IMG/VR virus record: IMGVR_UViG_3300046010_000002
Coordinates: 1 to 20,308 of that record
Strand: one strand, 5' to 3'
DNA from: a virus
Length of the DNA stretch: 20,308 nt
Shown here: one piece after another, positions 1-16,472 of the stretch
Layout of the letters: every line of letters starts with the position of its first letter
How positions within the stretch are numbered: position 1 is the first letter of the stretch
The notes under the pieces: generated by a model
The model's input: only the letters and a program-made list of their open reading frames with translations
What the model was told of the DNA's origin: nothing
The model's database searches: none
Translations under genes and position numbers: made by a program

Positions 1-445
1 CTAGCATTAAATTGTTTAGCTGCATTTTCTGCAGCAGTATCAGACAAAATAGCTTGTGCTGTAAGCTGTGCTTTTAGAACAGTTGTTTGTTGTTCATAAG
101 AAAGATTGGTTAGATCCATCTGTAAAGCAGACTGAGCATTAACTACAGCAGCTTGCTGTCTGTTATTTAAACTAGCTGTTTCAAGTGTAGCTGTCTGTGC
201 AAGCTCAGCCATGAAAGCAGCCTGTCTACTATTCAAATTGGCTAAGTCTACAGACTGAGCAAGCTTTGCATTCTCTAAAGCCACTTGTTGCTTAGCATTA
301 AAGTTTAAGTTGGCAATTTCAGAAACACGGGCAGCATTAACAACACGGGTCTGAAAGGTTTGATCAAACTCTTGACCTAAGAAGGTAGCTCTTTGTTGTG
401 CTGTAAGTACAGCTATCTGTTGTTTGTTAGACAGGTTTTGTATAC
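1..445 (-). repeat. 22-residue coiled-coil repeat region
   Basis: The encoded protein shows units starting NLSNKQQ, NLNFNAKQQ, NLNSRQ, SLNNRQQ and NLSYEQQ, most spaced 22 residues apart (one is 24). Each continues with a hydrophobic pair, an AQ or NA step, and an acidic DLA/DLT end. A period of 22 is two hendecads (11 residues), the pattern of right-handed or straight coiled coils, rather than heptads. The array is open at the window edge, so its total length is unknown. Confidence 0.7.
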
Positions 446-2003
446 TCACCTGTTGATATATAGCAGCATCAGCAGAAGCAATAGGAAGAGCTTTCTCCAT
501 AGCAGCCTGTACCAAAGCAGCACCAGCCAAGCTAGAAGCACCTAAGCCCCTAGCCGACATCTCTGCTGTCACTGCTCTCAACGCACCAGCAGCCCAAGGT
601 GGCGGGTTTTTTGCATCAAAATCTTTAGTGAGTTTAGCAAGCTGTCCTTGTACAGTCATGTCTGCAATGACAGTTCCTTCTTCAGCTTTAGCCTTAGCCA
701 ACTCTGTAGCCACCTTAGTCATATCTACAGCAGTACCAGAAACTTTCTCAGCTTCTGATATTACTCGCTCTGGTACTACAGTTACTTTTTGAGCAGTGGT
801 AATTTGTTCTGCTCTGTCAGCAGCACCAGCCAAAGCTGTTGTAGTATCTTCTTCTGCTTTTACTTTAGCTGCTTCAGACAAAGTGTCTACAGCAGGAAGA
901 AATGTAGCAAGCTTAGTAGTTAAAGATGCAAGAGCAGCATCTGCAGTCATTGTTTCTGGTTTTACAGTAGTGGGGGGCGTTGCTAATGTAGCAGCAGCAG
1001 GAGTAGTTCCGTCAATAGTACTTACAGTTCCAGCTCTTTCATCTGTACCAATCTTTTGAGCTTCAGTAGAATCAATAGTTGCAATTGATGCTACTTGAGC
1101 AGCATCGCCAGCCTGAGGAACGCCCGTAGCTGAGTAAGTAACACCTCCACCAGTCTGTGTTGCAGCAGTTCTTGTAGTTAAAGCTGCTGCTGCTTCTGCT
1201 GTAGATAGAGTTACACCCGGTGCTCTTGTAGTACCCGGCACTGTTGTTACAGGTGCTGGTGTTGTTGTTATTACACCTCTGGTTGTTACTGGTGCTGGTG
1301 TTGTTGTTATTACACCTCTAGTTGTAGTTGGTATTGGTGTTGTTGTTACTACGCCTCTAGTTGTAGTTGGTATAGGTGTTGTTGTTACTACACCTCTAGT
1401 TGTAGTTGGTGCTGGTGTAGTTGTAACTAATGTAACAGTAGCTGTAGTAACAAAAGGAGCAGTCGTTGTAGGCGCAGGTGTAGTTGTTACTGTAGTTGGT
1501 GTTGTAGTTGGTGGTGATGTAGTATTTGGGACAGCCGCATCATATGCATTTTGTACTGCTGTCAGGTCAAGTCCAGTAGCTCTTGATAAGTCTCCTGTAC
1601 TAATGCCATATCTATCCATCTCTGTTCTAATAGCATTATTATCCAAACCTGCTGCAACTGCATTGTTGAAAGCCTCTACAATGTTATTATAATAAGTGTC
1701 TACTGACATACCATTAGCTAAAGCGTAAGAAAGACCAGTAGATTGTCTTTCCTCTAACTGTTGATTATAATAATAGTCTCCATCATACGCATTAGATACA
1801 TTACCGCCCACAGCATAGCCTCTAGGTTTCATCTTAACCAAGCCACCCTTAGCCATACGCTCAGCAAACTTACCAGTGATGGAAGCATACTTAGCCTCTA
1901 GCGCAGGAGAAGACGCAAGGAACTCATCAAAGCCCTGCATGGGTCCGTCATAGCCTAGCTTTCTAGCTACAATCTCTTTTTGCTGTGATGTAAAATCTTT
2001 CAT
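1..2003 (-). CDS. Large repeat-rich virion-type protein, 3' end outside window
   Basis: An uninterrupted frame of 667 codons runs from the ATG at 2003 to the left edge without a stop, so the C-terminus is missing. The N-terminus (about residues 1-70) has FAERMAKGGLV at 46-56 followed by Lys and Gly. Residues about 202-253 are a Thr/Pro tract of 13-residue units (TTTPxPTTTRGVV type). The middle is Ala/Thr-rich. From about residue 520 to the edge it is an Ala/Gln/Asn-rich helix with 22-residue periodicity (NLxxxQQxAVLxAQ type), typical of a long coiled coil. There is no signal peptide or membrane segment. The start overlaps the stop of the upstream putative peptidase gene in an ATGA, implying coupled translation. 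Similar coiled-coil proteins are annotated as structural or internal virion proteins in aquatic phages (from memory). An ejected internal protein or a fibrous appendage is inference. The reading frame is certain, the function is not. Confidence 0.85.
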   Translation of the reverse strand, partial: MKDFTSQQKEIVARKLGYDGPMQGFDEFLASSPALEAKYASITGKFAERMAKGGLVKMKPRGYAVGGNVSNAYDGDYYYNQQLEERQSTGLSYALANGMSVDTYYNNIVEAFNNAVAAGLDNNAIRTEMDRYGISTGDLSRATGLDLTAVQNAYDAAVPNTTSPPTTTPTTVTTTPAPTTTAPFVTTATVTLVTTTPAPTTTRGVVTTTPIPTTTRGVVTTTPIPTTTRGVITTTPAPVTTRGVITTTPAPVTTVPGTTRAPGVTLSTAEAAAALTTRTAATQTGGGVTYSATGVPQAGDAAQVASIATIDSTEAQKIGTDERAGTVSTIDGTTPAAATLATPPTTVKPETMTADAALASLTTKLATFLPAVDTLSEAAKVKAEEDTTTALAGAADRAEQITTAQKVTVVPERVISEAEKVSGTAVDMTKVATELAKAKAEEGTVIADMTVQGQLAKLTKDFDAKNPPPWAAGALRAVTAEMSARGLGASSLAGAALVQAAMEKALPIASADAAIYQQVSIQNLSNKQQIAVLTAQQRATFLGQEFDQTFQTRVVNAARVSEIANLNFNAKQQVALENAKLAQSVDLANLNSRQAAFMAELAQTATLETASLNNRQQAAVVNAQSALQMDLTNLSYEQQTTVLKAQLTAQAILSDTAAENAAKQFNA
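1243..1430 (-). repeat. 39-bp tandem repeat encoding Thr/Pro units
   Basis: Four full in-frame 39-bp units lie at 1243-1281, 1282-1320, 1321-1359 and 1360-1398, with a fifth partial unit to about 1430. Each encodes 13 residues of the form TTTP(A/I)P(T/V)TTRGV(V/I). More degenerate Thr/Pro stretches continue to about 1525. The third base varies between copies while Thr, Pro, Arg and Gly are kept, so the repeat is under protein-level selection or is only moderately recent. It forms an extended mucin-like linker inside the left-edge virion-type protein. Confidence 0.9.
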
Positions 2004-2308
2004 ATATTTCTTGGTTTCTCTATTGCTTCAGTTAAATAAGCAAGCATATCTCTGTTATCTCTAAGTAGTGCTAACACTCCTACAGCCAAACAATACACTT
2101 GTCTCTCTGACAGTTTTAATTGGAAGCAGTCGTCTATAGCGTGTATACATTCATGTAACAATGTATCTGCCTCCGCTAAGGGGTGCTGACCAGACTTTAT
2201 TTTAATTGCATAATCGTCATAGTTGTACTCTCCCAGTTGTTCTGGGAATACATCTACAACCCTAATCGGCACTTCTCTGCCAATAATACTTAGAGAAGCT
2301 GGTAACAT
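2000..2308 (-). CDS. Small HExxH putative metallopeptidase
   Basis: This 102-aa protein carries HECIH at residues 52-56, a zinc-binding HExxH motif, in a predicted helix (ADTLLHECIHAID). It is followed by LSERQ with Glu68, a plausible third zinc ligand 12 residues after the second His, as in gluzincin-like or ImmA-like small peptidases. The first 45 residues look like a short beta-strand domain. It has no signal peptide, so it acts in the cytoplasm or is packaged. It starts 44 bases after the endolysin stop, behind a candidate promoter and an AAAGG ribosome site, and ends in an ATGA overlap with the large left-edge virion-type gene. The neighbour suggests a role in maturing or handling that protein, which is inference. 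A structural fold without catalysis is possible. Confidence 0.85.
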   Translation of the reverse strand: MLPASLSIIGREVPIRVVDVFPEQLGEYNYDDYAIKIKSGQHPLAEADTLLHECIHAIDDCFQLKLSERQVYCLAVGVLALLRDNRDMLAYLTEAIEKPRNI

Positions 2309-2326: not shown

Positions 2327-2355
2327 GTCATACCACAAATAGCTGGTCTAGTCAA
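2327..2355 (-). promoter_or_regulatory. Candidate sigma70 promoter for peptidase and left-edge gene
   Basis: On the minus strand TTGACT (2355-2350) and TATGAC (2332-2327) are separated by 17 bases, and the -10 is preceded by TGG, an extended -10. The -35 overlaps the endolysin stop codon. Transcription would begin near 2320, just upstream of the peptidase gene. The core TGGTATRAC is the same as in the capsid promoter at 14303-14330. The match is by eye only. Confidence 0.5.
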
Positions 2356-2966
2356 CCACCTAATACATGTAAGGCATGTTCAATATGCTTCTTACGATCT
2401 TCAAGTCCTATTGTGCCACCATTGATACGCTTTGTCATGGTAAGAATGTCACCACTGTCAGCATATTGGTTGAGCCTGTGAGTCTGCCAAAACCATCCGG
2501 CAGTCTGGGCAGCATACATAGGTGTACGCACCAGCTCAGGCTGCATAATGAAATCAACTCCTAAGGCTTGTCCAGCGTGGTAGAAATTATTCATGCCAGT
2601 TAGCTGTAAAAATCCGGATCCACGGAACCTGAACCCATCCCCACTAGCCTCATCCCTGTTGCCCATACGATTGCCATAGATTCTATTGGCTATCTTCTGT
2701 GGCTGCTTCTCGTAAGCTGCTGCACTTTCTGGTGTAAATCCCCAGACTCGCTTAGGAGTTTGAGGAAACAGTTTAAGCAGGGTAGGAGCACGATAGTTCA
2801 AGTTCTCTTCCATGATGCGGAAGTTCCCACACTCATGCCCACATTGACCAATCCATGAAGCCTGTTGTGCAGGAGTAACAATGCCAAACCTCTGAAAGGT
2901 TTCATTGAAAGCATCTGCCAGAGAAGGCTCAATGTGTAGTTGTCTTAGTTGTTCAGCGTTTACCAT
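2352..2966 (-). CDS. Endolysin, GH19 chitinase/lysozyme-like
   Basis: This 204-aa protein is a single GH19-type catalytic domain that would cleave the peptidoglycan glycan strand. The pattern GHECGNFRIMEENLNY at 43-58 contains the likely acid Glu45 and a second Glu at 53/54. FRGSGFLQLTG (114-124) matches the family's substrate-groove signature and RINGG at 180-184 the usual KxINGG. There is no signal peptide or cell-wall binding domain, so it needs a holin to cross the inner membrane. The ATG at 2966 lies inside the end of Rz (14-base overlap). The gene order Rz/Rz1 then endolysin is a variant of the usual lysis cassette. The domain assignment is secure. The exact bond cut was not determined. 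Confidence 0.93.
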   Translation of the reverse strand: MVNAEQLRQLHIEPSLADAFNETFQRFGIVTPAQQASWIGQCGHECGNFRIMEENLNYRAPTLLKLFPQTPKRVWGFTPESAAAYEKQPQKIANRIYGNRMGNRDEASGDGFRFRGSGFLQLTGMNNFYHAGQALGVDFIMQPELVRTPMYAAQTAGWFWQTHRLNQYADSGDILTMTKRINGGTIGLEDRKKHIEHALHVLGG

Positions 2967-3423
2967 TGACCAACTCCCTCATTTCGTTGTAGGCTGCGAC
3001 ACAGGCTGTGTGCTTGACGATGGCTTTGTCTCCTTCGGCAACGATGTCGATAAGAGTTGCAATAGTCTGTCGCTCAAGTTCGCTTGCATCGGCTCTGCTA
3101 TCTCCTGTGGCAGGGGTGGAACCAGTGCTGGTTTGTACACAACTGGTGGTGGGGAGGCGCAACCTGCCAGTGTTAGCAAGCTCACGCATAGCAGACTGTT
3201 TGTTAGATATTTCATTCTTTGCCTTTCTTAATGCTGTTTCTTTATCAGCAAGCTTAGTAGTCATGTTCTTCTCTAGCTCACGGGCTTCTTCATTCTTCTT
3301 AGCTATCTCTGCTTGCATATCAGCGTCACGCTCAAGCCAGCCATAGTGATGACCAGTTTGATATGTACCAAATAGTGCAACTATTGCACCAATGATTAGC
3401 CAAGGAAGTGGAATAGGGAACAT
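2953..3423 (-). CDS. Rz: Rz-like inner-membrane spanin
   Basis: This 156-aa protein has an N-terminal hydrophobic anchor at about residues 4-20 (PLPWLIIGAIVALFG), then a charged Lys/Glu-rich coiled coil at about 30-90. A C-terminal RADASELERQ segment and a YNEMREL end resemble Rz-family lysis proteins. I chose the ATG at 3423 over the TTG one codon upstream because it makes a TGATG junction with the preceding gene's stop. Spanins join inner and outer membranes and fuse them in the last step of lysis of Gram-negative hosts. The Rz1 partner is fully nested in another frame, which strongly supports the assignment. The two Cys in the periplasmic part could form disulphides. Confidence 0.9.
   Translation of the reverse strand: MFPIPLPWLIIGAIVALFGTYQTGHHYGWLERDADMQAEIAKKNEEARELEKNMTTKLADKETALRKAKNEISNKQSAMRELANTGRLRLPTTSCVQTSTGSTPATGDSRADASELERQTIATLIDIVAEGDKAIVKHTACVAAYNEMRELVNGKR
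2979..3215 (-). CDS. Rz1: Rz1-like outer-membrane lipoprotein spanin, nested in Rz
   Basis: This 78-aa frame lies entirely inside Rz in a different reading frame. It has a lipoprotein signal: MKYL start, hydrophobic core, and lipobox LAGC with Cys19. The mature chain is short and Pro-rich (ASPPPVVYKPALVPPLPQ), the hallmark of Rz1 proteins. It would be lipidated, sent to the outer membrane and pair with the C-terminus of Rz. The nested arrangement is that of lambda Rz/Rz1. The frame remains open although the overlapping Rz frame constrains every base, which supports reality. Confidence 0.88.
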   Translation of the reverse strand: MKYLTNSLLCVSLLTLAGCASPPPVVYKPALVPPLPQEIAEPMQANLSDRLLQLLSTSLPKETKPSSSTQPVSQPTTK

Positions 3424-3953
3424 CAATCCACCTCTTTTCTAGCTGCTGCTATTTCTTCCCTGTCTTCATCAGGCTCCATGTGTTCTGGAGGGGTTGTTGG
3501 TGGTGGACCGGGAGTCCAGCTTTCATCCAGCTCTGGGTTCTTCCACACAGGCATAGCACCAAAGGGCTGGCTAGGAAGGCCATAGGCAGACTGTGGTGAG
3601 GCGTAACTGCTGTTAGGCATACCATACCCGCCACCACCGCCATATCCATTGCCACAGCCCTGCATTGAAGGCTGTGGTCTAAAAGCATTATGTGCTGAAT
3701 TAACAGCCCTCTTACCTACAATGCCACCAATACCACCTACAATAAGTAATACTATATCATTAAGCATTTTAGCATAGGCTTGATCTATCGGAGCCATACT
3801 CTTAATAGGTTGTGTTACAAAAGTAACAGAATAGAGAAGAGCAAACACAATGCCAAATAGGATGACTGTAATAGCCACCACTACAAATCCCCAAATCCTA
3901 ACCTCAAACTCTTCAGTTGTTAGCTTTGGTTTGGGCTGGCTTGGTGTCTTCAT
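3423..3953 (-). CDS. Two-TM membrane protein with Gly/Tyr/Pro-rich tail, holin candidate
   Basis: From the ATG at 3953 the product is 176 aa. A TTG at 3998 would add 15 residues, but those lie deep in the preceding lipoprotein gene, and the ATG start leads directly into the hydrophilic MKTPSQPKPK segment. There are two hydrophobic segments, about residues 18-45 (IWGFVVVAITVILFGIVF) and 65-85 (NDIVLLIVGGIGGIVG). A low-complexity tail follows with GYGGGGGYGMP, many Pro and an acidic, charged end. The stop overlaps Rz in TGATG, and the start overlaps the lipoprotein gene by 41 bases. Two transmembrane segments beside the spanins and endolysin suggest a class II holin, but the long Gly/Pro tail is atypical. 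A virion membrane-contact protein is an alternative. Confidence 0.8.
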   Translation of the reverse strand: MKTPSQPKPKLTTEEFEVRIWGFVVVAITVILFGIVFALLYSVTFVTQPIKSMAPIDQAYAKMLNDIVLLIVGGIGGIVGKRAVNSAHNAFRPQPSMQGCGNGYGGGGGYGMPNSSYASPQSAYGLPSQPFGAMPVWKNPELDESWTPGPPPTTPPEHMEPDEDREEIAAARKEVD

Positions 3954-5775: not shown

Positions 5776-5962
5776 CAAAAGGAAAACCCGATTGCGTTGG
5801 AATGTCTAACAATGCTTGGCGATAAGCACTCCATTGCGTTTGCTGTTCAGAAGTCATTGTCGCCCAACGAATTGGGTTGATGCGATCAACAGTCTGACTT
5901 AACAACTCATCACGCTCCATGCGTCTGTGCATTTCATTTAATTTTGTAATTTCAGCGTTCAT
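5747..5962 (-). CDS. Tail fibre/tail assembly chaperone-like protein
   Basis: This 71-aa protein starts in TAATG with the tail fibre stop. The first half is a charged helix (NAEITKLNEMHRRMERDEL). The second has the pattern RWATMTSEQQTQWSAYRQAL followed by LLDIPTQSGFPFDVQWPTKP, which matches the small tail assembly chaperone family (W-x-x-YRQ-x-LLDIP-x-Q-x-GFP-WP-x-KP) usually found right after fibre genes. It probably helps the large fibre fold or trimerise and is not necessarily in the virion. The family recognition is by motif, not search. Confidence 0.8.
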   Translation of the reverse strand: MNAEITKLNEMHRRMERDELLSQTVDRINPIRWATMTSEQQTQWSAYRQALLDIPTQSGFPFDVQWPTKPE

Positions 5963-8900
5963 TAACTTACTCCATAAACTGTGTAGACCCCAGCCAAATA
6001 ATAACCAGAGCCAAAAGGTTGAGGGAAATTTATAGACGTTGGAACTGAAGATGTGTCATACGCAAAACCAGCAGAATGAAACACGTTGTTTCGGCTAAAT
6101 CCACCTTGTAATTGAACACGGTATGCGGAACTCATGTTTGCGTTATAGCTTAATTGGAAACTACAACGCATAGCATCGTTATTGCCCGGACTTCCAAATT
6201 GAATGAAAGTTTGGCTACTCTGATTAGTACCAGTAGTCATGTTAAACCACGAATAGCTATAAACTGATCCAGTATCGTTATTAAAACGAATAATTCCAGC
6301 ACCTGTGCCACTGGCGGACACGTAATTACCTTGTATTACTAATTGCAAATATTTATAAGTTGTGTCCCAGCCAGACGGCAAGTTAATCGATCCTGACTGC
6401 GTACCGGCACTGAGAGTTAATGTTCCAATGACTGTAAGTCCACCGCCACTAACTGTTGTCCATGTTGGAGCCGCACCAGAACCGCCAGAGGTCAGCACCT
6501 GACCGCTTGTGCCGTAGTTAGCACCTGATAAACCAAATGCTCCTGTGGATGCTATGCGAAGGCGTTCCGTTGGATTACCGCCATTTACTCGTGTAGTAAA
6601 CCTCAGTGCGCCAGCATAGTCACCCGCTGTTCCATTCTCTTTAAATCCTTGGATTCCAGAAAAGTCGTTTACCCTACTTGTAGTGCCATCGTAATATCCA
6701 CCAAAAGCAAGGCCACCGCCATATCCTGCAGTTGCGGTATTATTGGTTTGAAGAACCATGATGCGATTTGCTTCACCATTAACCCCACCATTTCCATACA
6801 CATCTAAAGTCAAGTCTGGTGCTGTGTTTCCAATACCTATTTTACCTGCCTCTGTAATTATAAATTTTGTGCTGTAACTGCTTCCGGGGGTTTGAACAAC
6901 AAACGAACCACTTGTTGAGTCGTTGCCAATAAAAGTTTGTGACCCAGAATTTCCAAGAGAATAAAATACAGCGGTTGATGTGCTAGCAAAACTAGCAACA
7001 GTTTGTGTTGAACCACCATTTACGGTTAGTTTGTTACCGGGCGAAATTGTACCAATACCCAAATTCCCTGCGCTACTAAGCGTCATTGTTTGGGTTAGAG
7101 AACCTGCCGCAGGTCTTGTGTAAAACTGAATCTCAGTTCCAACATTGTCTGTAACAGCACCAAAGCGAATAAGCCCGACAGTTGAATTGCCAGAATTAAA
7201 CATTGCCAAAGAGCCACGATTACCTGATGTAACGCTACTAGAATTGCTCATTGCAATTGAAACGTCGCTGGTATCGCCAACTTGTAACTTTACATCAGGC
7301 GCAGTAACGCCTATTCCAAGTCTTCCAGCCGCTGTAAGAGTCATCGCCTGAGTAAAGGAGATAGCGTTTCCTGCTGTGCCTGATGCGGCTGTTAACCAAC
7401 GATGCTCTCCAGTAGTCTGTTGGTATGCGGTAGCAAATCCCGTAGTCAAATAAATATTTGTAGGAGTATTGTCGGTGTAATAATTGTCGCCAATCAATGT
7501 ACTGCCACCGCTGGCAATTGAACCCGTAGTGCCAAACTGGAAAGCCTTGCGGGAACTCCACCAAGCACTCGGAGCAACTCCCAAGCCTAGATTGCCTGCG
7601 CTGTCGAGCTTTAATTTCTCCGTTCCACTAGTGTTAAACGCCATGAAATTGCTTGTATGGTCATAAGTAATCTGACCTTCATACGCTTGCTGTCCAGTAG
7701 TTCCATCGGCAAACATAATGTAGCCAGAACTAGTAGAACCAGAAACAATCGTCATGCCGTTATTGCCTGACGTACCAATCACCAAGTTATCAGCCGCACT
7801 GTTATAAGAAGTTGGGCTTGTGTTACCAATGCCTAGATTAGTCCCATCAAAAGTCAGCGCAGAGCCAGTAGCCAATGCACTAGAACTAGATGCGTACACC
7901 ACACCGCCTGATGTGAATGATGTTAGGTTTGTACCGCCATTGGCAGTAGGTAGTGTTCCTGTCACTCCAGTTGTCAAGGGTAGGCCAGTTAAGTTGGTTG
8001 CTACTCCAGAGGAGGGAGTGCCTAAAGCAGGTGTTGTTAATATAGGGCTTGTAAGAGTTTTGTTTGTTAAGGTTTCAGTGCCTGTCAAAGTAACAAAGCT
8101 ACCAGCAGTAAAAGCTGCGCTAGACCATGCTGAGCCAGTCCATACAAACAAGTTACTAGATGTACTGTTCCAATATAATGCACCTGTTAATAAAGCATTG
8201 CCATCATTGTCAACAGAAGGAGCAGAAGACTTGCTTCCTAAATATCTATCATCAAAATCGTCATAACTAGTAGCCGCATTAGCGGCTGAAGTAGAAGCAG
8301 CAGAGGCAGAGCTAGAAGCATTAGATGCAGATGTAGAAGCATTGCTTGCACTGGTAGCTGCATTAGAAGCAGAGGTGGCTGCAGCAGAAGCAGAAGCCGC
8401 AGCAGCAGTTGCAGAGCCTAAGATGCCATCAACATACAATTTAGTTGTAGCATCAGCATTGTCTGTTGGAGTACCCAAGCCTGTAATCTTGGAAGTACCC
8501 ATCGCAATGGCTCCAGACATTGTGCCGCCTGTTAAAGACAGCTTCAATGCATCGGCAGTGTCTACATATACTTTAGTAGCAGCGTCTTGGTTAGCTGTGG
8601 GATCACCCATTCCAGTGATTTTGGAAGTTCCCATTGCAATAGCACCACTCATCGTGCCACCAGCAAGATTCAGTTTTAATGCATCTGCTGTATCAACATA
8701 AGTTTTGGTGGCAGCGTCTTGTGCAAGAGTTGGATTACCTAAGCCAGTAATTTGACTTGTTCCCATTGCAATAGCACCACTCATTGTGCCACCAGAAAGG
8801 TTAAGCTTCAATGCGTCTGCAGTATCAACATATGTCTTAGTAGTAGCATCTGCTGAAAGAGTTGGTGTACCAAGTCCAGTAATCTTATTGGTTCCCATTG

Positions 8901-10152
8901 CAATTGCACCAGACATAGTGCCACCAGCAAGTGCTAGTTTAGTTGCAATGGAGTTGGTAACTGTAGTAGCGAAGTTGGCATCATCACCTAAAGCAGCAGC
9001 CAATTCATCTAGAGTGTCTAACGCTCCGGGAGCAGCAGCTACTAAGTTGCTGATAGATGTATCAACATAAACCTTAGTGGCAGCATCTTGATTTGCAGTG
9101 GGATCTCCAAGACCTGTAATCTTAGAAGTACCCATCGCAATAGCACCTGACATAGTGCCACCAGCAAGGTTGAGCTTTAATGCATCTGCCGTATCAACAT
9201 AAGTTTTAGTGGCAGCGTCTTGTGCAAGAGTTGGGTCACCTAGTCCAGTGATCTTGCTAGTACCCATAGCTATGACACCAGACATTGTGCCACCAGACAG
9301 ATTAAGCTTAAGAGCATCTGCTGTGTCAACATAGCCTTTGGTAGCCGCATCGCCAGAGTTTGTAGGAGAAGTTAAGTTGGTGATGGTGGCAGCAGTGCCA
9401 GCATCCATGTTCAAACCACCATTGATGGTGACATCGTTGAATGTTGATGTGCCTGTAGAGGCTGTAACATTACCAGTTAAGTTGCCTGTAACATTACCAA
9501 CAACAGCACCTGTGTGTGTACCTGTAGTGTTACCAGTGACAGCACCAGTAAGTCCACCAACAAATCCTGTGGTGGCAGTAATTGTAGTGCCTGTGATGGC
9601 TAAAGCAGAAGAGCCACCGATAACAGCACCATCAATAGTCCCTGCATTGATGTCAGCAGAAGCAATAGTTGCTGCTGTATTAACTGTTAAGTTTGTTACA
9701 GTGGCTGCTGCTGGTGTAGTTGCACCAATAACTGCTGAATCAACTGTGCCACCATTAATGTCAGCAGTGTCAGCAACTAAGCTGTCAATGTTGGCTGTGC
9801 CATCAATGTGTAAGTCTTTAAATTCAAGAGCACTTGTGCCTAAGTCAACATCGTTGTCTGTTACTGGAACAATAGCTCCGTCTTGGAAGCGCACCTGCTC
9901 AACAGCAGCAGCACCTACTTCAACAAACACACCATGTCTATTATTACTGGTGTCTGTAGCAATCTTGTTTAATAAGTCAGCATCACCAATGACAGGAACA
10001 GGATGTCCTTCAGCCGCAGTGCCATCATGTCTATGACCACCATTAGCAACAAAGGCATCACGCAGAGCATTAAGCTCATTGTTAATTGGAGCCGCACGAA
10101 CTACGCCCGTTGGTACAATATCAGCAGCCGACTGTCTTACATAACCTGCCAT
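5962..10152 (-). CDS. Long repeat-rich tail fibre
   Basis: At 1396 aa this is the largest complete gene. The N-terminal part (about 1-115) is a non-repetitive, probably virion-attaching region with a GGHRHDG motif. Residues about 115-265 are Ala/Thr-rich strands with VTGN and IDGA-type repeats. About 266-576 are 44-residue repeats ([15 protein letters not shown], [18 protein letters not shown]). About 578-621 are Ala/Ser/Asn heptads, a trimeric coiled coil. The rest holds the common fibre strings [20 protein letters not shown] and five LGIGxTxP-type repeats, and ends in a non-repetitive beta domain (about 1260-1396) likely to bind the receptor. No C-terminal S74 self-cleaving chaperone is seen. 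An AAGGGGA ribosome site precedes ATG 10152. The fibre role is secure by architecture. The receptor is unknown. Confidence 0.93.
8285..8412 (-). repeat. 21-bp heptad repeat, Ala/Ser/Asn coiled coil
   Basis: The protein reads as consecutive 7-residue units ([35 protein letters not shown]), matched by a near-21-base period in the DNA. Such Ala/Ser heptads form the trimeric rod of lambda-type side tail fibres. It lies between the shaft repeats and the distal half of the fibre and may act as a hinge or trimerisation point. Confidence 0.85.
8424..9357 (-). repeat. 132-bp tandem repeat array in fibre shaft
   Basis: Six copies plus a truncated end copy encode a 44-residue unit of the form [18 protein letters not shown], [18 protein letters not shown] and a short linker. 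Several copies are close at the DNA level (for example the gcagcgtcttgtgcaagagtt string near 8713 and 9213). The third copy carries an extra segment of about 36 residues rich in Ala, Leu and Asp ([20 protein letters not shown]) before rejoining the repeat. The array is suited to slippage or unequal recombination that would change fibre length. Confidence 0.88.
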
Positions 10153-15303: not shown

Positions 15304-15331
15304 ATTATATAGTATTATTTCTTAGAAGCAA
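15304..15331 (-). promoter_or_regulatory. Weak candidate promoter before scaffold
   Basis: A perfect TATAAT (15309-15304) has TTGCTT (15331-15326) 16 bases upstream, a poor -35 match, at the very end of the 385-aa gene. Start of transcription would be near 15297, giving a scaffold leader of about 100 bases that also holds a hairpin (ACUCA/UGAGU plus CCAG/CUGG, about 15250-15277). The A/T-rich setting makes chance matches likely. Confidence 0.3.
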
Positions 15332-16472
15332 TGCCTCTTTTTTGAGCAGGTGCTGGTTTCTTTGTACGCTTAACAACTAAGCCACCTTTAGCAAATGCAC
15401 CATCTCCATCTGCTCCAGTACCGGGACCACCTCCAGTATTACCACTACCATCTGTACCATCACTACCTCCACTTGTATTACCACTATTATCAGCAGCAGC
15501 GGTGGCAGCAGTAGACCCAGCTACACCCATACCATTCGTTGAAACACCATCAGTAACACCTTCTGAAATTGAAGCATTATCAATACCTAATGCAGCAGCG
15601 TTAGCTGCTAAACCTTCTGCGGTAGAAGAATCAATACCAGCAGCGTTGGCTGTACCTACAGCAACAGAAGAAGTATTAGAATTTGTAAGACCATCAATAG
15701 CATTAGCAATGGCTCCAATGGCAATACCAATAGCAGAGTTGCCTATGCCAATTCCAGATACGCCAGTGCTGCCTCCTACAGAAGGACCACCCCCTACACT
15801 AACACCATCACCACCACCACCACTAGTATCAACTGTCCCTGTGGCTGTAACAACATCTTTCTTAGTGTCATCAGTCTTCTTAGTCTCTGCAATAAATTGA
15901 CCAGCAGAACCAGCAAACTCATATCCAGCAGGGATTTGAATGGATGGCTTATCGTTGAAGAAAGTGATATACATCACCCTGCCTTCTTTATTCTTGTATG
16001 CTCTAACATCTAATGCTGGATTGGTAAGAGATGTTTTAGGAATGTTATATTTATTAAGAAGATCTACACCGGGTTCATTAAAACCACCAGCAGAAAACTT
16101 CTTCTCCCCCATCTGCTCACCATCAACTTCTTGCATGATGTCATCAATCTCAGAATCAAAACCATCTTCTTCTTGTAGGGCTTCTGGATTAGCCACCTCT
16201 TGAGCATTACCCATCTGACCAATCTCTGCCATGCGAGACAAGCCTTGCTTAGCTTCATCACGAAGCTTCATCAATCTTTCAAGACCAATGTATCTAACAA
16301 CATCAGCGGGAATAACAAACTCACCTTCACTAAGCTGAGCAGGAATGTCATCTCTCACTTCGTTCTGTAAAGAACCCGGAGGTACATCATTACCTGACAC
16401 AGGATCTACTGTGCCGCCTTCGTCATTCATGCCGCCTTCAGCGAACAATCTCTCTGTATCATTATTGTACAT
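15315..16472 (-). CDS. Low-complexity virion-type protein with LSEGEFVIPADVV module
   Basis: This 385-aa protein has LFAEGG at 9-14, then a conserved-looking module at about 30-80 (PPGSLQNEV, DDIPAQLSEGEFVIPADVV, YIGLERLMKLRDEAKQGL). KFSAGGF follows at 125-131, then a short folded-looking stretch at 135-195 (NKEGRVMYITFFNDKPSI). Residues about 205-355 are Gly/Ala/Ser/Thr low complexity. The end is AFAKGGLVVKRTKKPAPAQK, a very basic tail. The EGEFVIPADVV module is one I recall in structural proteins of marine phages. It lies between portal and scaffold, with an 11-base overlap with the preceding gene. A minor head or internal protein is likely. Function not established. Confidence 0.85.
   Translation of the reverse strand: MYNNDTERLFAEGGMNDEGGTVDPVSGNDVPPGSLQNEVRDDIPAQLSEGEFVIPADVVRYIGLERLMKLRDEAKQGLSRMAEIGQMGNAQEVANPEALQEEDGFDSEIDDIMQEVDGEQMGEKKFSAGGFNEPGVDLLNKYNIPKTSLTNPALDVRAYKNKEGRVMYITFFNDKPSIQIPAGYEFAGSAGQFIAETKKTDDTKKDVVTATGTVDTSGGGGDGVSVGGGPSVGGSTGVSGIGIGNSAIGIAIGAIANAIDGLTNSNTSSVAVGTANAAGIDSSTAEGLAANAAALGIDNASISEGVTDGVSTNGMGVAGSTAATAAADNSGNTSGGSDGTDGSGNTGGGPGTGADGDGAFAKGGLVVKRTKKPAPAQKRGIASKK

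Follow-up and report, generated by a model that had tools for sequence, protein, structure and literature searches.

Introduction

Several described groups of HExxH metallopeptidases resemble, each in certain respects, a 102-aa protein encoded by the virus fragment analyzed here. Its best, though weak, matches among solved folds are the ImmA/IrrE metallopeptidases (IrrE/PprI; PDB 3dti and 8sln), in which an HExxH helix is followed by a Glu helix as in our protein, although their chains are about 240 aa long and no curated family profile, whether Pfam above cut-off or NCBIfam, matched the 102-aa protein. The minigluzincins selecase, abylysin, and jannalysin (PDB 4qhf, 4jiu, and 4jix) are single domains of 104–112 aa with a similar layout, but identity to our protein is 9–17% in the rows listed, with weak scores. 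The zincins described by Iyer et al. (PMC5512222) in polyvalent phage and plasmid proteins are likewise element-encoded and combine HEXXH with a Glu in the next helix; there they form domains of multidomain proteins, whereas ours is a stand-alone ORF. Members of phrog_1233, including Bordetella phage BB8 p34, belong to the same sequence family, with HExxH, a downstream Glu, and a length of about 100 aa, yet BB8 p34 and similar members lie near DNA polymerase and exonuclease genes, while the gene studied here lies before that for a large coiled-coil protein, hereafter BIG.

Small phage HExxH proteins have mostly been left as hypothetical, and this gene is not named in the available portions of PMC9038755, PMC10504331, PMC6918029, and PMC5512222. 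Here, we place it in a family, predict its fold, point to its likely catalytic residues, and describe several kinds of site that the family occupies in genomes. We also tell linkage apart from dependence: related BIG genes exist without the protease, and searches for its substrate are thus directed away from BIG.

Genomic setting

The window, meaning the whole stretch of DNA analyzed, is a 20,308-bp virus fragment (IMG/VR record IMGVR_UViG_3300046010_000002) whose identified genes all lie on the minus strand and encode a terminase, SU10-type portal, capsid, adaptor, fiber, spanin, and GH19-type endolysin, together with the HExxH protein and BIG. Residues 412–667 of BIG are 57% identical to hypothetical protein phage1322_25 of Puniceispirillum phage HMO-2011, and the capsid is an 82% match to Caudoviricetes MW202701; the window phage is therefore related to the HMO-2011-type phages. 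In the MW202701.1 record (L069), phage gene products called huntingtin, ribonuclease E, and WD40 repeat protein look over-annotated. The fiber gene of the window (5962–10152, minus strand) encodes 1396 aa with several repeats of one type.

The endolysin gene (2352–2966, minus strand) lies directly upstream of the HExxH gene, in a slot that holds other endolysin types in relatives. By Pfam the upstream enzyme is GH19 in the window, phage lysozyme in L005, L158, and L246, GH108 in L143, and M15 in L134, and in BIG-type HExxH loci the upstream gene resembles an endolysin wherever inspected. In a spanin-like pair (2953–3426 and 2979–3215, minus strand), an Rz-like gene encloses a small ORF that by eye resembles a lipoprotein (LAGC). 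Within the record, no repressor gene, the ImmA/IrrE-type substrate, was identified beside the HExxH gene, whose neighbors are the endolysin gene and BIG.

A predicted minimal zinc protease

The HExxH gene occupies 2000–2308 on the minus strand. Its active-site motif, HECIH, corresponds to codons 52–56 (2141–2155, minus strand), and codon 68 (2105–2107, minus strand) specifies a Glu that, from the zincin fold as set out in PMC5512222, would be the third zinc ligand. The putative ligands are thus H52, H56, and E68, with E53 as the likely catalytic residue. All four residues are invariant in an alignment of 11 sequences and remain so once distant phage members from Bordetella, Macromonas, Microcystis, and Bradyrhizobium are added, and in a larger selected set an HExxH with a Glu 9–20 residues downstream is found in 76 of 76 rows. 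Among 43 distinct close copies, median dN/dS is 0.16 (based on the 582 of 903 pairs whose dS lay within 0.2–2), which indicates purifying selection. Given this value and the 76 of 76 rows, the motif goes beyond chance.

An AlphaFold model of the protein (mean pLDDT 94) has strands, a helix bearing HExxH, and a next helix that starts at E68. Its nearest solved folds are IrrE/PprI, Spartan-type proteins, minigluzincins, CapP, and ArdC, at modest scores; these matches are weak, with a best Foldseek E value of 0.027 (range 0.027–0.043) and VIA-align Z of at most 7.5. At E ≤ 0.001 there are 30 matches among viral models, of which three carry the name IrrE N-terminal-like, and a phage IrrE-like model matches at E 1.5e-7. 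At the sequence level, residues 21–97 match phrog_1233 (function unknown) at E 1.2e-9 and the BB8 homologue scores E 6.1e-23, while only two of 50,697 phage records are matched by the window protein at E ≤ 0.01. Two relatives gave a DUF6782 match, sub-threshold only, and a profile search of the sequences of solved structures with the family returned no match. Direct binding of DNA was considered and is opposed by the composition of the protein, which has 16 acidic and 10 basic residues. The description of this ORF as metallopeptidase-like, made in a preliminary description of the same DNA, is borne out, as is the conservation of its likely zinc ligands among homologues. Because the His, Glu, His, and Glu68 residues are conserved, the gene is under purifying selection, and the model is confident, we predict a minimal IrrE-like zinc protease that would act as a free-standing enzyme, with zinc binding and proteolysis suggested by fold and conservation.

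Linkage to the downstream gene

The HExxH gene and BIG overlap in an ATGA (2000–2003, minus strand), in which the HExxH stop codon TGA takes positions 2002–2000 and the BIG start codon ATG positions 2003–2001. To place this junction among relatives, we used 93 loci (67 plus 26 further contigs, re-fetched contigs already used being excluded), nine of which stop in or at the HExxH gene, leaving 84 usable. The N-terminal module of BIG (N-module) lies directly 3′ of the HExxH gene in all 84, with a 4-base overlap in 79, an 8-base overlap in two, and gaps of 1, 2, and 32 bases in the remainder; the HExxH proteins of BIG-linked loci fall as low as 37% identity to that of the window. An ATGA overlap by itself is not unusual in the window, where such 4-base overlaps occur at four of 21 junctions in a hand-picked gene list, this one included. 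At listed junctions of relatives, 4-base overlaps number 1 of 20 in MW202701, 3 of 23 in HMO-2011, and 0 of 13 in CRP-603.

A promoter-like element, TTGACT-N17-TATGAC with an extended −10 (TGnTATGAC), stands ahead of the pair (2327–2355, minus strand). Among loci with HExxH identity of 75% or more, TTGAC[TA]-N16-18-TATGAC precedes the HExxH gene in 28 of 30 distinct upstream regions (61 loci), including some with a lysozyme gene upstream, but in none of 30 more distant BIG-linked loci, so it is not a mark of the whole lineage. The exact element occurs once in the window; it was not among the elements listed by a stricter promoter scan of the window. As promoter, we preferred this element to a TATAAT that overlaps the HExxH start codon and was rejected because its transcript would begin within the HExxH gene.

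These observations refine the preliminary description, which had the two genes translationally coupled and under one promoter. The ATGA overlap stands and is widely kept, while coupling of translation itself would be a plausible consequence of it. A promoter common to both genes is plausible in the close relatives but does not extend to the distant loci. The linkage elsewhere on which that description depended holds in the 84 usable loci when counted from the HExxH gene, but the pairing is less strict when counted from BIG, as shown below.

The large coiled-coil protein

BIG is a large coiled-coil virion-type protein that runs off the window after 667 codons (3–2003, minus strand); in contig L034 it is complete at 830 aa and identical to the window over the 667 residues. 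It begins with the N-module of about 67 aa (1803–2003, minus strand) and contains a 39-bp tandem repeat with a Thr/Pro-rich translation (1252–1429). In a low-confidence model (mean pLDDT 53), the N-module is small and helical, the middle is of low confidence, and the C-terminal part has long helices. With the repeat and these predicted helices, the earlier wording of a large, repeat-rich, coiled-coil partner is a fair one. Large proteins of unknown function come after BIG, and family searches with these and with the window BIG gave no useful match.

The BIG proteins of some relatives are found with exchangeable fiber-type tips. A Peptidase_S74-like end is present in 11 of 67 distinct BIG ORFs (eight by pattern and three further by eye), and in a Pfam scan of 10 relatives Peptidase_S74 was detected in the five chosen for an S74-like end and was absent from the other five; the same five S74-tipped proteins match tail-fiber PHROGs. 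BIG of the window phage itself lacks both a Peptidase_S74 tip and any family match. From the S74 tips and tail-fiber matches in relatives, BIG may be a fiber-like protein with exchangeable ends. Peptidase_S74 (chaperone of endosialidase) tips occur in L003, L015, L038, L041, and L049, where they alternate with other tips among close relatives.

In L127, L128, L132–L142, L147, L152, and L156, the N-module is a separate ORF of 161–192 aa (e.g. L134:6294–6872), with matches to the coiled-coil part further downstream where the contig extends that far. A 385-aa protein of the window (15315–16472, minus strand) bears FAEGG close to the start and FAKGGLVVKR close to the end, similar to the MAKGGLVK with which the N-module ends.

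Large coiled-coil genes without the protease gene

Linkage was also examined in the reverse direction, by a search with the N-module from which the best 80 of 250 loci were kept; since these are the best of 250, the shares among them are not population estimates. An HExxH gene lies upstream of the BIG N-module in 57 of the 80, and 23 have none beside BIG, which is there adjoined by an endolysin-like or spanin-like gene. Co-occurrence of the two genes thus holds from the side of the protease gene in the 84 usable loci but not from that of BIG. The N-modules of the 23 loci are 67–81% identical to that of the window, and cross identity between the sets with and without HExxH reaches 86%. A comparison of 65 distinct N-modules with HExxH and 19 without found no residue difference, every column having residues in common except insert columns, where the HExxH-minus set has gaps.

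The protease family is also missing elsewhere in these records as far as they extend: four of the 23 are 56–60 kb and the rest shorter, most being short fragments, and any of the 23 may be incomplete. Searches with profiles A1 and phrog_1233 gave no match in them, and A2 gave one stop-interrupted match at E 0.005, which we treated as noise. As positive controls, A1 and A2 each recover 11 of 11 known HExxH records (10 contigs and MW202701), and phrog_1233 recovers nine of 11. HMO-2011 and CRP-603, searched with all three profiles, likewise gave no match. In a 58-row tree built from the C-terminal parts of BIG (BIG ends of different type being mixed in it, and L145, L239, L309, and L311 dropped for short or missing matches), HExxH presence needs five changes, at least four of them on starred branches.

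The wider protease family and its possible role

A profile that included distant members was used to view the family more widely. Of its best 80 of at least 253 loci, 26 have the BIG N-module, 25 lie near genes for T7-like DNA polymerase or exonuclease, 19 include a terminase, and 10 are unclassified. These classes are rough, since they depend on tblastn searches with a few marker proteins, which could match at any point in loci of at most about 10 kb.

What might such an enzyme cut? The preliminary description read the pair as a sign either that the HExxH protein processes BIG or that both are packaged for ejection into the host. A dedicated BIG processor could act during assembly, cutting, for instance, after the MAKGG that closes the N-module, with coupling setting the stoichiometry. 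The immediate 5′ position of the HExxH gene in the 84 usable loci and the 4-base overlap in 79 would fit such a role, as would the persistence of the pair while upstream endolysins vary over four Pfam types and the relatives in which a separate N-module ORF adjoins the HExxH gene. We now think this role improbable and dropped it as first choice: in 23 of the 80 best N-module loci BIG has no HExxH neighbor, with no credible family member in their mostly fragmentary records, N-modules with and without the gene are alike in their residues, and the family is found at loci without BIG. Moreover, Peptidase_S74, the tip on the BIGs of some relatives, is a family with self-cleavage.

A contribution to lysis, with the HExxH protein as a late protease working with the endolysin, is decidedly improbable in our view. 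Inspected upstream genes do resemble endolysins, as Pfam confirms for the window and the five relatives named above, but the endolysin type changes freely, the T7-like members adjoin DNA polymerase and exonuclease genes away from the amidase, and inspection of the HExxH protein by eye shows neither a signal sequence nor a membrane helix. We rate as very improbable a role at entry, with the protease packaged alongside BIG and, once ejected, cleaving a protein of the host. According to PMC5512222, zincin domains occur commonly in large proteins of phages and plasmids that are believed to be delivered together with the DNA, and large proteins follow BIG, yet the HExxH protein stands alone at 102 aa with no fusion to a virion protein, and T7-like relatives have its gene among replication genes. 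The fiber-type S74 tips on the BIGs of some relatives, too, are easier to reconcile with an external appendage than with ejection, and this, with the family members at loci lacking a BIG match, speaks against the earlier suggestion of co-packaging.

On balance, and by a modest degree, we favor an accessory zinc protease gene whose substrate is not BIG, because BIG is found without the protease and the protease family without BIG. Since related viruses carry a closely related BIG and no protease, the gene is probably an optional extra and not a dedicated processor of BIG. It would have entered the HMO-2011-related lineage at the endolysin–BIG junction, probably once. In close relatives it would be transcribed together with BIG from the promoter ahead of the pair, and translation of BIG would be coupled to it through the ATGA overlap. 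Expression is presumably late, given its place in the structural and lysis region. The substrate would be another protein of the infected cell, of host or phage origin, as the occurrence of BIG without the protease suggests, although in phages that lack the HExxH gene a host protease could process BIG. The kept position before BIG, down to 37% HExxH identity, is also to be expected of a functional pair.

A tree of 77 selected HExxH rows fits a single entry into the BIG site, followed by inheritance with losses or exchange: the 29 BIG-linked rows form one side of a starred branch (98) and 19 T7-like rows one side of a branch at 85, the deeper order being unsure because of few columns and several long branches. 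A broader reading is possible, though unlikely: phrog_1233 would be a portable phage protease, and its repeated settling in three kinds of slot would reflect a single, widely conserved host factor that it cuts. The slots would tentatively be the endolysin–BIG junction, the T7-like replication genes, and sites near the terminase; the factor could conceivably be a defense regulator or a DNA-bound protein, and the window clade might then represent a cassette with its own promoter.

Pelagibacter phage HTVC103P also gave weak matches (A2, E 0.003; phrog_1233, 5e-5; A1, none) and was rejected as a family member. The match is to a different HExxH protein, gp03 (MN698242.1 732–1154, L339; HELVHAIFGKGH), which is encoded elsewhere in the genome.
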